A stretch of 37,220 nt of DNA from a virus. The notes beneath the pieces are model-generated. The model did no database searches. It saw only the letters and a program-made list of their open reading frames with translations, and had not been told where the DNA came from. Positions 25,118 through 35,869 of the stretch are shown piece after piece (the stretch's first letter is position 1; each line of letters begins with the position of its first letter). The position numbers and the translations under genes were made by a program. The stretch covers positions 1 through 37,220 of IMG/VR virus record IMGVR_UViG_3300028378_000010, one strand, 5' to 3'.

Positions 25118-25216
25118 TGGAGACAATGGGATTTGAACCCATGCCTTGGCGATCACTTATCTGGTTTGAGCAGAAGGTCTCTTCGATCACTTGTTCTACC
25201 GCTGAACTATGTCCCC
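25118..25216 (-). tRNA. tRNA-like gene with enlarged anticodon domain (anticodon uncertain)
   Basis: Read on the minus strand, the 7-bp acceptor stem (GGGGACA with TGTCTCC, one G-T pair), U8-A9, a perfect D-arm (GTTC, AGCGGTA, GAAC) and a perfect T-arm (ATGGG, TTCAAAT, CCCAT) are all present. Between position 26 and the T-arm there are 49 bases instead of about 22. One fold gives an anticodon stem of four or more pairs (AGTGA with TCGCC, first pair mismatched), a normal 5-base variable loop, and a 34-base loop in place of 7. Inside that loop a second hairpin TCTG-CTCAAAC-CAGA looks exactly like a Leu(CAA) anticodon loop. The nonamer CGATCACTT occurs twice (25150-25158 and 25184-25192). CCA is not encoded. 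It could be an intron-bearing tRNA, a pseudo-tRNA or a tRNA mimic. Confidence 0.6.
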
Positions 25217-28201: not shown

Positions 28202-28276
28202 TGGTTCCCCCAGAGGGACTCGAACCCTCATTCCTCGTTTAGGAAACGAGTTTCTATCCCGTTGAATTATGGAGGA
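28202..28276 (-). tRNA. tRNA-Arg(CCT)
   Basis: A complete cloverleaf on the minus strand: acceptor TCCTCCA with TGGGGGA (one T-G pair), a weak three-pair D-stem (ATTC/GAAA), anticodon stem CTCGT/ACGAG with loop TTCCTAA (anticodon CCT at 28243-28241, reading AGG), and T-arm GAGGG-TTCGAGT-CCCTC. A 3' CCA is encoded. It lies 8 bases after the primase-helicase stop and is co-transcribed with the replication genes. AGG is rare in the late genes, which favour CGT, so the tRNA may serve AT-rich acquired genes. Confidence 0.88.
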
Positions 28277-31506: not shown

Positions 31507-31842
31507 CTAAAGAAATGTGCAGAATGTGTAGAACTTTGGGTCGTTGTCTTCAGCAAGCTGATCTACAAAGACCTTCATTTCTGATGAGAGTTCAGACTTC
31601 CAAGTTTCAAATTGGACTTCTGCTTCTACGATTGTGAATTCTTCAAAGCCTTGAAGAACATCCCAACGAACATCTGAACTGATGAAAAGCTCAACACCAA
31701 AGACACACTGTTTGCTGTCCAGATCTATTGACATGAAACCTTTGGTCTCTTTGTAGTCGATGTTTGATTGCCAGTTAGAAATTTCAGTGGTCATTGGTGT
31801 GACCCAGCCATACCAAGTATGGGCGCGTTGACTATATCCCAT
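31507..31842 (-). CDS. 111-residue protein of unknown function
   Basis: This small acidic protein overlaps the end of the DNA polymerase gene by 11 bases. ATG 31842 is chosen because a GGAG lies 8 bases upstream; a longer frame would run deep into the polymerase coding sequence. It begins with an aromatic segment (HTWYGW) and has a helical acidic C-terminal half. No family recognised and no signal or membrane segment. Its tight packing between polymerase and nuclease genes suggests a replication or recombination accessory, by position only. Confidence 0.65.
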   Translation of the reverse strand: MGYSQRAHTWYGWVTPMTTEISNWQSNIDYKETKGFMSIDLDSKQCVFGVELFISSDVRWDVLQGFEEFTIVEAEVQFETWKSELSSEMKVFVDQLAEDNDPKFYTFCTFL

Positions 31843-32624
31843 TGAGTGTCTCCAGATGTTTCGTGATGCAGGTTTGGACATCAGCGATGGTTGCGTTGTT
31901 AGGGATGGTCATTTCATTCTTCCAGTTTGGAAAGAAGATCGACAGCTCCCCGCTCATTTTGATGTCTTCGCTCTGGATTTCAGGAAGTTCCTGCCAGCTC
32001 ACAGCTTTCACCAAATGCTTGTTGGCATACAACAGCACTTCCATATCATCTTTGATGAGGAAATATCCTGCATCATGGATCTGAGCACATGGTTTGATGT
32101 CCAACCGATAGGGACCGGAACGAACAGTCTTCATAAATTCAGTACCAGCACGACTGTTCAACATGCAGTAGGATTGACCCAGGGCGTTGCCTGCTGTGCG
32201 TCCTTCGGCTGCTGCTTCATAGGGTGTCTTACTGGTTCCAAGCACCACCTGCTTCAGCAGGGGAGTCCGGAGACGCAAACCAAAAGCGAGAGTGACGTAG
32301 CCATCCTTACAGGCTTGTTCCAGTTTATCTGCAACCCACTTGTCAGAGACGTGGTACAGATTGTGATAGCTGGCCTCGATTGACTTAGCCAACTGCGATG
32401 TGAAGCCACAGTTTGCCATCAGAGTCACGTATGTACCCTGATATGTTTACATACCCCCCTCACATTACATGAGGGGGTAATCCAGTAAGCGCAAAAGTGG
32501 GCGCTTTGGATTCTTGCCTCCAATGTGGGTAAAGTTTTTTGATTGAGTTAACACGAGTCACATTATGATCTAAAGATGAAACTTCAGATATAGATGTAAT
32601 AGTGTCATTGATTTTTAGCACCAT
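31832..32624 (-). CDS. Family A DNA polymerase, C-terminal fragment, interrupted by a 40-nt gap
   Basis: ATG 32624 (AAAGGG 9 bases upstream, inside the endonuclease tail) opens a frame of 47 codons: a divergent leader, then RVNSIKKLYPHW and RQESKAPTFALT. After Thr47 (codon 32486-32484) come 40 bases with stops in the relevant frames. From 32443 the expected continuation YQGTYVTLM is read to the stop at 31832. Joined, the product has 250 residues. R36, K40, F44 and Y48 reproduce the O-helix spacing R-x3-K-x3-F-x3-Y of polymerase motif B (Pol I R754, K758, F762, Y766), and QIHDAGY is motif C. Without joining, neither part could complete the O-helix. The downstream part alone could start at GTG 32428 but would lack Y48. 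Together with the upstream fragment this completes a polymerase of about 940 residues. Confidence 0.8.
32444..32483 (-). other. 40-nt coding gap with hairpin: candidate ribosome-bypass element
   Basis: The sequence lies between the ACT codon (Thr47) and TAT (Tyr48) of polymerase motif B. It starts with GGA and ends with ACA, a Thr codon that could serve as landing triplet for the ACT-decoding tRNA. An 8-bp stem CCCCCTCA/TGAGGGGG (plus TA/TA beyond one bulged G) with loop TGTAATG fills its centre. The 3' arm is Shine-Dalgarno-like (GAGGGG), 7 bases before ACA. Continuing in frame hits TGA at codon 8. The downstream frame contains TAA two codons before TAT, so no simple frameshift can pass. Splicing is an alternative, but 40 bases is far too short for a group I intron and the 3' end is not G. 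Confidence 0.75.
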
Positions 32625-33150
32625 TGCTTCTAGCCCTTTCTTGTTTTTGCATCAAAAGAGAAAAGTTGAGTTCTTTTTCACGATTAGTATATCGTGCAAT
32701 CTCTCTGAGTTTGGTTGATAAATAAGGCACTTTATAAGGAACACGTTGAGTGAGACTTAAATATGATTCTCCATCAATCACAGACTGAAGACACTCTTGA
32801 AACTCACCAAAAGAAAGTCGATTGGTATATACCCGAAGCCCTAAATTCACTACATGAATGGAGTTCTCTGAACTTGTTACCCATTCAAGATTAGTGTCTT
32901 TATTATTCCAAACATCTCCATCTTTATGATTGACCTCTGGAAGGTTATTTGGATTTGGAATCCAAGTTAATGCCACAAGACGGTGTACGTAAAAAGAGGA
33001 TCCAAATCCATTAGACCACAAAGAGACATGAAAATACCTAACATCCTTATGTTTTGCTGGTTTTAGGTACTTGTTGGAATGATGAGAAAATACCCTACCA
33101 TCTGAGTTGATAGAGTATTTTCCTTCATACCCTTTCAGAGCTTTAAGCAT
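32605..33150 (-). CDS. HNH homing endonuclease (NUMOD4-HNH type)
   Basis: This is a 181-residue protein. Residues 1-30 form a NUMOD4-like beginning (LKGYEGKYSINSDGRVFS). Residues about 60-105 form the HNH nuclease core: VHRLVALTWIPNP, then VNHKDGDVWNN and NLEWVTSSEN. The C-terminal third is helical and probably binds DNA. Such enzymes make site-specific cuts in alleles lacking the element and so spread it. The coding sequence is clearly AT-rich (about 37 percent GC in one counted 60-base line, against about 58 percent in the neighbouring gene). ATG 33150 overlaps the end of the Tad2-like gene, and the ribosome binding site is weak. Its last codons overlap the start of the polymerase C-terminal fragment. 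Confidence 0.92.
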   Translation of the reverse strand: MLKALKGYEGKYSINSDGRVFSHHSNKYLKPAKHKDVRYFHVSLWSNGFGSSFYVHRLVALTWIPNPNNLPEVNHKDGDVWNNKDTNLEWVTSSENSIHVVNLGLRVYTNRLSFGEFQECLQSVIDGESYLSLTQRVPYKVPYLSTKLREIARYTNREKELNFSLLMQKQERARSNGAKNQ

Positions 33151-33610
33151 CAGGTACGACGCCCCAGTCATTGGCCAGCATGTCTGTCTGCGAACAAAGC
33201 CAAGGAACAATCGTCCCGTCTGCTGTACGCATATCCACATGGCCGTGGTAGCTCACCTCTGTACCCTCACCGAGAATCGAGATGAGAGGCTCACGGTTGA
33301 CTGTGAATGTGGAACCTTGAACCAGGAAGATGAACATGTTCTTCCCATTCCAGCCGGAACGAGAGACACGACCACCACGCTTCACGATCTCCAGTGCATC
33401 ACTGAAAGTCATGTTACCACTGTTGTGGAAGAGTTCATCGAAGACAGCTTTGGGCTGCCAGTTGATGTGATCAGTGACCAGATCTTCGACAAGGTATCCA
33501 GCATCATTGCCGTCTTCATCATCGGGGAGTGTCCAACCACGAAGGTTGTTGTACTCCTGTCGTGTCATTGGTTTGGCATTGACTGCCAGAGTTCCTAGAT
33601 AGATATCCAT
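33143..33610 (-). CDS. DUF2829/Tad2-like protein (candidate Thoeris anti-defence)
   Basis: This is a 155-residue protein. The C-terminal ~85 residues match the DUF2829 pattern: MTFSDALEIVKRGGRVSRSGWNG, then KNMFIFLV, and a final WLCSQTDMLANDWGVV. Proteins with this domain include Tad2, which binds the cyclic ADP-ribose-type signal made by Thoeris and so blocks that defence. The N-terminal ~65 residues (YLGTLAVNAKPMTRQEYN, GYLVED) form an added small domain seen with DUF2829 in some phages. It lies between the two DNA polymerase fragments, 7 bases after the stop of the first, with normal phage base composition. The domain call is good; the anti-Thoeris function is known only for some family members. 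Confidence 0.8.
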   Translation of the reverse strand: MDIYLGTLAVNAKPMTRQEYNNLRGWTLPDDEDGNDAGYLVEDLVTDHINWQPKAVFDELFHNSGNMTFSDALEIVKRGGRVSRSGWNGKNMFIFLVQGSTFTVNREPLISILGEGTEVSYHGHVDMRTADGTIVPWLCSQTDMLANDWGVVPDA

Positions 33611-33617
33611 TGGTTTC

Positions 33618-35693
33618 TCACTTGTTTAGTTGGGCTACTAGCTCTGAACCGAGCATCGTTTGACCCTGATATTCTATCTCCTCATCACTGTGGAAATAGA
33701 TCTGTTTGCCATCGACCAGAGCTTTGTAAGCTGTGGCTCCTTCGGGAAGGAGTTCGATGTCAGGCATGTGCTCCTTGAAATAAGCCAATGCACGAAGACA
33801 GTGGCCGTCGAACCCATCAGTATAGACCTTGATCTTCTCTGGATCTTTGGTCGTAACTGCTGAGATTTTGTCCTCCAAAGAGTCGAAGTCCAAACCAACA
33901 AACAGCCATCCGGGAGGTGCTTCAAAGCACTCCTTGATGAGCTTGGCAAGTCTTTGTTTGGTCTTTGTAGACCCAGCAGAAGGGATATTCTGTAGGTTGG
34001 GTCCGTTGCTGGACAATCTACCAGATGCTGTCCCTCCGAGTCGGAAGTTTCCAAACAAATAATGCCACCCATCGTTGCCTTTCTGAGCTTTGAGAAAAGC
34101 TGGAAGGAAGGTTGAGAGGATAATTGCACTGGCTTTGTACTCGATCAGGATCTCCAAGAATCGAATCACTTCGGGATCCTTGGTGTGATTGATCAGCTTC
34201 TCCAATGTCTCAGCACCTGTGGCAGGCTGCTTGGTGTCTGTGTAATCCAACACAGGCAAACCAAGGAAGTCTTCATTATAAAGGAACCGCTGTAGCTGCT
34301 TAGGGCTACCGGGGTTGAACTCTACGATTGTATCTTTGGTGAGACCAAGATCAGCCTTGGTTATCACTTTGGTTTTGAGCTTGGCATTCTTCTCGATGAC
34401 TTTTTCATCTCGCAGTGTGTCCATAAAGGACCATACGATTTGAAGGTTGTTCATCTTATTCAGATTATCTGTGGATTCTTTCTGAAGAAGTTTGTCCAAG
34501 GCTTTCACTTTGGACATGTTGAGAGGCATACCTGTGAGCTGCATCTGAATGATGTCGATCACTGCTGGTCTGAACAACGTCTGGTAAGGAATGTCCTGAT
34601 TGTCAGCCAACATAATTGGCAGATTTTTGTTGTGGACATACCATGTGGAGAGTCCATCAATCAGGTTGTACTGTAGGAGATCTGGTAGAGAGATCAGATG
34701 GATGTCATGGATGTCTTCCTGAGCATAGTTTCCAGCAAATGCTTGTGCTTGGATCTTGAGACCCAGCTCATTACCAGCACAGGAATTGGTTGCCAGATAG
34801 GTGATAATCTGGGTGCAGTCCCAGTCTTTCAGCATCACGTCGAGACCTTCGAGGAGACCCTCTTGGTCAAGGATGTGATCCATAAACAGTTGATAAATCA
34901 TGACATAAACGTCGTAGCAGATGTTGTGGTAGATCATCTTTCGTTTGAAAGCATAGAAGAAATCTCGGAGAGCTGCTTTGATTCTCTGGTTTTCTTTTCG
35001 ACCAGACTTCTGACCATCCATAGGATTGTTGTCTGAGTCTACAGGGAAGGCTATCCCTTCATGTTCATTCCAACAGAAGGTGATGGTCCCAACTCCTGCA
35101 TCATAATGCTTCAGAGAGAAGCCTTCGATGTCACAGGTGAGATCACAGTCCATAGCCAAGAGCTTGTCGAGCCAGTCTAGGATGTCATTCTCTTTGGTAG
35201 GGTAGTCTGCGAACTTAATGATGTTCGATCCAACCACTGTGGAATTGCCTGCTGCCCACCGTTTGGTGGACTCCAGTGCCATACCAATCTTTGCCTTTAT
35301 CTTGTCAGGATCATAGAAGACCCGTCCATAATTTGGACAGTAGGTGATGGTGAAGTCCTTGTCATATTCAGAGACAAAGTAATCACCAATGGTGGCATCT
35401 GTCTTGGCTTTCTTCGACAGGATTTTGAAGTAATCCGGTTGAGTGACAACCAACATTTCAATGCCTTCTGCCTTGAGATTTGGCAGAAGATCATCGAGAT
35501 ATTCTTTCATGTCAGCAGCAGAGTTTTTCTTCTTGGTTCCATCCATGAAGAGATCGGCAACCATGATGCTCTCACCCAAAGCAAGCAGGTGAGGTTGGTA
35601 GTAATGCTTCTGCACCTCTGCTGTCTGGATGCGTGGAACCAAGATACAGATTCGAGGATCTTTTGCAGAGTTGCCGATGACTTCATATCTCAT
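33618..35693 (-). CDS. Family A DNA polymerase, N-terminal fragment (exonuclease and palm motif A)
   Basis: This is a 691-residue polypeptide. A 3'-5' exonuclease domain is present: CDIEG with D188 and E190 (Exo I), HNICYD (Exo II) and YNLIDGLSTWYV (Exo III). The thumb and palm follow, with GRLSSNGPNLQNIPS (motif 1 of family A polymerases) and VGLDFDSLED, where D602 and E607 correspond to Pol I D705 and E710. The protein then ends at ...LVAQLNK, about 50 residues before the expected motif B, which lies in the separate downstream fragment. N4 polymerase (gp39) is a single protein of about 870 residues. ATG 35693 has GGAG 7 bases upstream and overlaps the previous gene's stop region. The two fragments presumably assemble in trans. 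Confidence 0.92.
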   Translation of the reverse strand: MRYEVIGNSAKDPRICILVPRIQTAEVQKHYYQPHLLALGESIMVADLFMDGTKKKNSAADMKEYLDDLLPNLKAEGIEMLVVTQPDYFKILSKKAKTDATIGDYFVSEYDKDFTITYCPNYGRVFYDPDKIKAKIGMALESTKRWAAGNSTVVGSNIIKFADYPTKENDILDWLDKLLAMDCDLTCDIEGFSLKHYDAGVGTITFCWNEHEGIAFPVDSDNNPMDGQKSGRKENQRIKAALRDFFYAFKRKMIYHNICYDVYVMIYQLFMDHILDQEGLLEGLDVMLKDWDCTQIITYLATNSCAGNELGLKIQAQAFAGNYAQEDIHDIHLISLPDLLQYNLIDGLSTWYVHNKNLPIMLADNQDIPYQTLFRPAVIDIIQMQLTGMPLNMSKVKALDKLLQKESTDNLNKMNNLQIVWSFMDTLRDEKVIEKNAKLKTKVITKADLGLTKDTIVEFNPGSPKQLQRFLYNEDFLGLPVLDYTDTKQPATGAETLEKLINHTKDPEVIRFLEILIEYKASAIILSTFLPAFLKAQKGNDGWHYLFGNFRLGGTASGRLSSNGPNLQNIPSAGSTKTKQRLAKLIKECFEAPPGWLFVGLDFDSLEDKISAVTTKDPEKIKVYTDGFDGHCLRALAYFKEHMPDIELLPEGATAYKALVDGKQIYFHSDEEIEYQGQTMLGSELVAQLNK

Positions 35694-35695
35694 TT

Positions 35696-35869
35696 TCAAT
35701 CTCCAATAACGATATGATCAGCTTCACCAATAGCTGTTTGAGCTTCCAACATTTGGGTCATCCATTTATCATTGTGAGATGGAAAATCGAGTTCTTCATC
35801 AATGACTTGTGAGATAACAGCATAGAGTGTATTTGCACTGTCTTTGCTGATTGTGATTTCAGTTTTCAT
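35696..35869 (-). CDS. 57-residue protein of unknown function
   Basis: This short gene fills the gap between helicase and polymerase. ATG 35869 overlaps the helicase stop (ATGA), and its own stop lies 3 bases before the polymerase ATG. The product is acidic, with a predicted helix in the middle (SANTLYAVISQVIDEEL) and a second near the end. No family recognised. The perfect fit between two genes, overlapping starts and stops, and absence of other coding capacity argue that it is real. Translation coupling to the polymerase is likely, since the polymerase ribosome binding site lies inside this gene. Confidence 0.7.
   Translation of the reverse strand: MKTEITISKDSANTLYAVISQVIDEELDFPSHNDKWMTQMLEAQTAIGEADHIVIGD

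Follow-up and report, generated by a model that had tools for sequence, protein, structure and literature searches.

A proposed programmed ribosome-bypass element on a mobile homing cassette in the DNA polymerase gene of N4-like phages

The window analyzed here (IMG/VR record IMGVR_UViG_3300028378_000010, positions 1-37,220, that is, the whole 37,220-nt stretch) encodes on its minus strand an N4-like (Schitoviridae) family A DNA polymerase, polA, in three pieces, the last two of which are separated by 40 non-coding bases that split the O-helix exactly between a threonine and a tyrosine codon. We propose, with a probability of roughly 0.87, that these 40 bases are a programmed ribosome-bypass element borne by a mobile homing cassette. 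Comparison with close relatives reveals a precise insertion, comprising an HNH gene, a recoded start of pol-C and the hairpin-bearing gap, which ends at the Thr codon before the Tyr. The bypass itself we infer from sequence, as the only explanation that appears to fit all of the tests.

The pieces are arranged in the order pol-N, Tad2-like gene, HNH gene and pol-C (Table 1), with pol-C made up of the 47-codon ORF1, the gap and the 203-codon ORF2. pol-N matches Pfam PF00476 at profile positions 28-199 and is 62-66% identical to the roseophage polymerase over residues 3-649, while ORF2 is 60-66% identical to the C termini of N4-like polymerases from its first residue and its protein is 100% identical to that of the IMG/VR contig L002. 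The HNH protein of the window has the conserved HNH residues common to those of L021 and L014. The Tad2-like gene also lies between the polymerase pieces in the cassette-free relatives L002, L007, L009, L010, L016, and L028. Elsewhere in the window, an Rfam tRNA match at 25118-25216 (50 bits, 99 nt long) is without an ARAGORN call, whereas a tRNA-Arg(CCT) at 28202-28276 is called by ARAGORN.

Table 1. Features of the split polymerase gene in the window
Feature	Coordinates	Strand	Description or basis
pol-N	33618..35699	-	N-terminal 693 codons, family A (N4 gp39-like) DNA polymerase, own stop codon; ORF
Tad2-like gene (Thoeris anti-defence domain), between pol pieces	33143..33610	-	PF11195, 1.3e-24
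NUMOD4/HNH homing endonuclease gene	32605..33150	-	PF07463 and PF13392
695-nt cassette (HNH, recoded 47 codons, gap)	32447..33141	-	comparison with L002
pol-C ORF1, 47 codons, end ...RQESKAPTFALT	32484..32624	-	homologous to contiguous polymerase of relatives
Take-off codon ACT (Thr47)	32484..32486	-	
40-nt non-coding gap, proposed to be bypassed	32444..32483	-	four more elements at same boundary
Core hairpin, 9 bp, 5-nt loop	32455..32477	-	
Landing codon ACA (Thr), adjoins resume codon TAT	32444..32446	-	
pol-C ORF2, YQGTYVTLM..., 203 codons	31832..32443	-	

On the minus strand, from 32483 down to 32444, the junction reads ACT-GGATTACCCCCTCATGTAATGTGAGGGGGGTATGTAAACA-TAT, which is exactly the stop-containing gap described in the first-pass annotation. 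From the ATG at 32624, the upstream frame (frame 0) reads MVLKINDTITSISEVSSLDHNVTRVNSIKKLYPHWRQESKAPTFALT, then GLPPHVM and a TGA, the eighth codon within the gap. Read in the resume frame, the gap is TAA TGT GAG GGG GGT ATG TAA ACA, followed by TAT, with a TAA two codons ahead of the Tyr. Since both relevant frames contain stops, one frameshift is not enough to get through the gap. In N4-like relatives that lack the element, the same residues are uninterrupted (...FALT/YQGT...), and phmmer against PDB family A polymerases aligns the FALT/YQGT stretch with the O-helix region, in agreement with the earlier placement of the junction between Thr47 and the O-helix Tyr. The hairpin was found to have 9 bp instead of the 8 originally counted, with an RNA fold z of -3.0.

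To look for similar elements, IMG/VR was scanned with the flanking codons fixed and any 28-58 nt between them, leaving the hairpin and the landing codon free; a looser first scan had given mostly chance hits among the matches listed, and the pattern was then tightened. In polymerase context, the scan recovered four elements beyond that of the window, in L021, L083, L378 (the same phage as L403), and L392. All five, with lengths of 40 (window), 48 (L021), 45 (L083), 47 (L378), and 48 nt (L392), sit exactly at the ALT/Y boundary in diverged phages, each of which keeps an intact ORF2 (57-69% identical to that of L378). The same phage, with the same element, was recovered from two samples as L378 and L403 (99.97% identity). 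Regarding the earlier suggestion of an independent bypass element, these comparisons appear to support the bypass reading, but the element is not a single case and belongs to a mobile family. An assembly or sequencing artefact, for which one could cite that the carriers are all metagenome contigs, is scarcely conceivable in view of five different sequences that follow the same logic in different samples, one of them found twice. Among GTDB genomes, searched with the TTT form of the pattern only, there were 11 matches, none in a polymerase, and queries with the HNH or the 47-codon piece found no bypass carrier among cultured phages, only the nACB1 intron described below. In L392 (437-2470 of the reverse complement), pol-N and the pol-C with the candidate element are separated by a ribonucleotide reductase gene.

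Threonine codons (ACN) flank the proposed hop at both ends in all five elements, with take-off/landing pairs of ACT/ACA in the window, ACC/ACT in L021, ACG/ACC in L083, ACT/ACT in L378, and ACC/ACC in L392. The Thr codons pointed out in the first-pass annotation are thus present, as a synonymous and not an identical pair, identical codons being found in two elements (L378 and L392). In principle, a short duplication of the target could have left behind the conserved landing codon, but its third base varies and its AC is fixed, the pattern expected if the codon is read. No other take-off/landing match, whether with Leu CTN before the Thr or with the sense codon after it, was seen in the five elements. 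The lengths leave remainders modulo 3 of 1 (window), 0 (L021), 0 (L083), 2 (L378), and 0 (L392), and each of the three in-frame elements (L021, L083, and L392) holds two or three in-frame stops. Stops occur in both relevant frames in 5/5 elements, which rules out readthrough or a single frameshift throughout, as had been argued for the window. The first stop after take-off is the second codon in L021, L083, and L378, the seventh in L392, and the eighth in the window; a stop directly 3' of the take-off codon is absent from all five.

The elements also share a predicted RNA structure anchored at the take-off codon. Fold z values were -3.0 for the window, -6.3 for L021, -5.6 for L083, -5.7 for L378, and -8.3 for L392, compared with -3.4 for the T4 control. 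Pairs were counted element by element, because the 3' arm is partly misplaced when RNAalifold is run on the MAFFT alignment. In the core stem (gap positions 7-15), 45/45 cells are paired across the five elements, with double-sided exchanges such as C-G/G-C, C-G/A-U, T-A/C-G, and A-T/T-A. Below it, the wobble base of the take-off codon pairs with a base 3' of the hairpin in every element and covaries with it (U-A in the window, C-G in L021, G-C in L083, U-A in L378, and C-G in L392), and this lower stem is weak in the window. In three elements, 6 nt separate the end of the structure from the landing codon. Ahead of the landing codon lies a purine-rich, Shine-Dalgarno (SD)-like stretch, with uncalibrated anti-SD duplex energies of -3.6 to -11.8 kcal/mol. 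Upstream of take-off, hairpin potential for a 5' stem-loop is present in carriers and also in many non-carriers (p = 0.03), and this feature is not clearly specific to carriers.

The SD-like stretch, together with the upstream split, which already makes the polymerase two-chain, might suggest that ORF1 simply ends in the gap and that ORF2 restarts on its own, yielding a three-chain polymerase. However, the stretch from the last stop to the Tyr holds no ATG, GTG, or TTG in the resume frame in any of the five elements, nor is there an in-frame start within 60 nt past the Tyr in L021 and L392. Moreover, ACA, ACT, and ACC are not near-cognate starts, and the break would fall inside the O-helix, between the F and the Y of the catalytic motif. 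A restart is therefore highly improbable.

Alternatively, the 40-48 nt might be cut from the mRNA before translation, as a mini-intron of a new sort. No group I or II intron in the window matched Rfam at the gathering threshold, and no intron match was obtained in 31800..35800 even at E 5. As positive control for the RF00028 search served a group I intron in Acinetobacter phage nACB1 (OQ032511.1; L080:3846-4690), whose two halves score 41 and 30.5 bits, both under the gathering score. This HNH-bearing intron lies unannotated in the DNA polymerase gene, whose exons are entered as separate polymerase genes in the deposited record, and the exons would join as FA-L(T^TA)-T-Y, 5 nt upstream of the bypass boundary. 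Its HNH is a related one (53% identity), and its position suggests that the ALT/Y site is the target of this HNH lineage. The intron and the window element thus have a related HNH, the same gene and nearly the same insertion site in common, but the intron would be removed by RNA splicing, whereas the window is without an intron core. That splicing appears to be used elsewhere at this target speaks for a mini-intron; on the other hand, 40-48 nt are too short for a group I or II core, and a Thr codon before the resume codon reflects a need of tRNA re-pairing and not of a splice site. We therefore consider splicing very unlikely.

The endonuclease gene and the candidate bypass element form one unit that is missing from close relatives. 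The window and L002 share 99.25% identity as far as 33142 and 99.0% identity from 32446 on; at the cassette position, L002 lacks both HNH and gap, and its 126 nt correspond to 695 nt in the window, made up of the HNH, the recoded 47 codons and the gap. The recoded codons show 68% protein identity to L002, the start ATG of the window HNH is the ATG serving as pol-C start in L002, and the cassette has the ACA codon ahead of the Tyr as its right edge. The same holds for two further comparisons with relatives whose polymerase is intact, L413 (the same contig as L378) versus L416, with 96% identical flanks, and L021 versus L020, with 94-96% identical flanks, in which identity returns at the landing codon. 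Hence, the right cassette edge coincides with the landing codon in three of three occupied/empty pairs (flanks 94-99% identical). The left edge in L413/L416 and L021/L020 lies within pol-N, past ...PDI, indicating that a new pol-N tail arrives on the cassette along with the HNH and the pol-C start, and that the gene is split in this way. In the pol-C tree, carriers are scattered next to cassette-free sisters.

Where the HNH is present as a free gene, a frame-breaking insert is found at the junction or up to 9 nt from it in 6/6 loci (window, L021, L083, L378, L474 with 5 nt, and L014 with 1 nt), compared with 1/14 split loci without this HNH (L392); Fisher's test gives p ~2e-4 with 14 controls and 1.3e-4 with 15, for loci that are not phylogenetically independent. 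In L014 (L014:4980-5001), the HNH cassette is accompanied by one extra base and no long gap (ACC TTT C GCA CTT ACC TAT), which might allow +1 frameshifting at TTT_C or else reflect a defect or an error in sequencing. In L474 (L474:3996-4000), the HNH cassette comes with 5 inserted nt at the ALT/Y boundary (ACT-TAGCT-TAT), and ahead of them the SKAPTFAL codons form a very stable hairpin (z -4.7 versus mononucleotide shuffles). The inserts of L014 and L474 either need another form of recoding or are defective. The polymerase of L038, L063, and L076 (Klebsiella phage Pylas type) is interrupted by a more distant HNH, and its residues 627-649 are encoded both before and after that HNH. In L427 (L427:1567-2820), polymerase residues of about 563-692 are found in repeated pieces around another HNH gene.

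Next, we asked whether the interrupted polymerase is functional. ORF2 of the window and of L002 differ by 5 synonymous and 0 nonsynonymous changes, and L413 versus L416 shows a dN of 0.011 against a dS of 0.151. The ORF2 segment is under purifying selection, and part of this change is older than the insertions. In all of the records, no DNA_pol_A match was found besides pol-N and pol-C, and thus no second intact polymerase of family A; another intact polymerase, together with a missing joined peptide, had been named in the first-pass annotation, along with splicing and misassembly, as a way in which its reading could fail. It follows that the polymerase protein must come from the interrupted gene, unless there is a non-family-A replacement enzyme or one encoded in the missing part of fragment records. 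These results bear on whether the window merely holds a defective polymerase allele caught in a metagenome, its replication being carried out by another polymerase or a helper phage. The carriers are all uncultivated contigs, the interruption falls in the active site, and L014 and L474 have small frame-breaking inserts at nearly the same place. Yet such an allele is unlikely when five diverged carriers keep ORF2 intact, change between the window and L002 is only synonymous and purifying selection in L413 is strong, the same element recurs in two samples (L378/L403), and the records offer no second family A polymerase; besides, neither the conserved Thr codon nor the structure would persist in a dead gene.

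According to the bypass model, ribosomes would translate the 47 codons and stall at the Thr codon paired into the strong stem-loop. The peptidyl-tRNA-Thr would then detach, the ribosome would slide across the gap, and the tRNA would re-pair at the ACN codon, such that translation resumes at the Tyr with the O-helix uninterrupted again; pol-C presumably joins pol-N as a two-chain polymerase. At the DNA level, the insert would destroy the HNH target and so protect the cassette-bearing genome, while the HNH would carry the cassette into polymerase genes that lack it. The conserved Thr codons, the take-off-anchored structure and the length range all fit a bypass by Thr-tRNA re-pairing. Against it stand the pairs of the window (ACT/ACA) and L083 (ACG/ACC), which are not identical, codon identity being limited to 2/5 elements, and the missing stop next to take-off, which is important in T4. 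Nor is a nascent-peptide signal recognisable in the elements. It is conceivable, at about even odds in our estimate, that the elements form a broader family of mobile Schitoviridae polymerase cassettes guarding their own target with recoding-dependent inserts, in which Thr-to-Thr bypass would be the main form, L474 a short hop, L014 a +1 frameshift, and the nACB1 intron, whose endonuclease is related and whose site is nearly identical, an alternative.

The closest known system is the 50-nt bypass of T4 gene 60 (gene 39, mobA, 60.1), where a replication gene is likewise split with an HNH homing endonuclease (PMC11194080, PMC3014915, PMC5009743). A likeness in gap length, codon position (46/47) and HNH neighbor had been claimed from the window alone and proved closer than stated, since the polymerase is also split further upstream, with pol-N ending at 33618 and the Tad2-like and HNH genes in between, which parallels the T4 order 39-mobA-60.1-60. 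In both systems, a non-coding gap comparable in length follows codon 46 or 47 of the C-terminal gene, the take-off codon lies within a stem-loop (with a UUCG cap in T4 and in L083), and the landing codon is identical or synonymous; an SD-like sequence before landing may be a further likeness. They differ in the gene (a topoisomerase there, a DNA polymerase here) and the amino acid (Gly there, Thr here); moreover, the landing codon here is synonymous and not always identical, no stop follows right after take-off, the core hairpin starts about 6 nt downstream, and several natural variants with empty-site relatives exist. No sequence homology is claimed, and, having no stop adjoining take-off, the elements are not strict members of the gene 60 type and would only work alike. 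Sliding in T4 keeps its processivity up to 56 nt (PMC11194080). In work cited in PMC5009743 (its ref 158), the T4 hop is described as protecting the endonuclease target and as part of a mobile DNA cassette, in which gene and element move together and the right edge is the bypass element, as here; what differs here are three independent occupied/empty pairs in another phage family, with cleavage and protection only predicted. The byp elements of Magnusiomyces capitatus are set apart by their description as mitochondrial, many per genome and apparently context-independent. In tmp of mycobacteriophage Corndog, an HNH gene also adjoins the interrupted gene, a Thr codon also precedes the resumed peptide, and splicing was not seen (PMC4351075). 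However, Corndog tmp and the terminase of Streptomyces phage Hau3 are proposed, unproven bypass candidates (PMC5009743, PMC4351075) without an element family. Programmed bypass in phages was said in 2020 to be observed only in T4 (PMC7576135), and a T4 review describes bypass as apparently unique to gene 60 (PMC3014915); a literature search, with most subscription papers outside it, found no report of bypass in Schitoviridae or N4-like phages. The elements described here would share the working principle of T4, apparently independently, with another gene, tRNA and anatomy.

If bypass occurs as proposed, annotation pipelines would label genes that carry such elements as broken. With five natural variants in an essential polymerase of another, unrelated phage family, one could then tell which features are necessary: threonine would work, and the adjacent stop would be dispensable. 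Matched occupied and empty alleles are available for direct tests. Finally, the finding would support the view that bypass evolves as immunity to a homing endonuclease.
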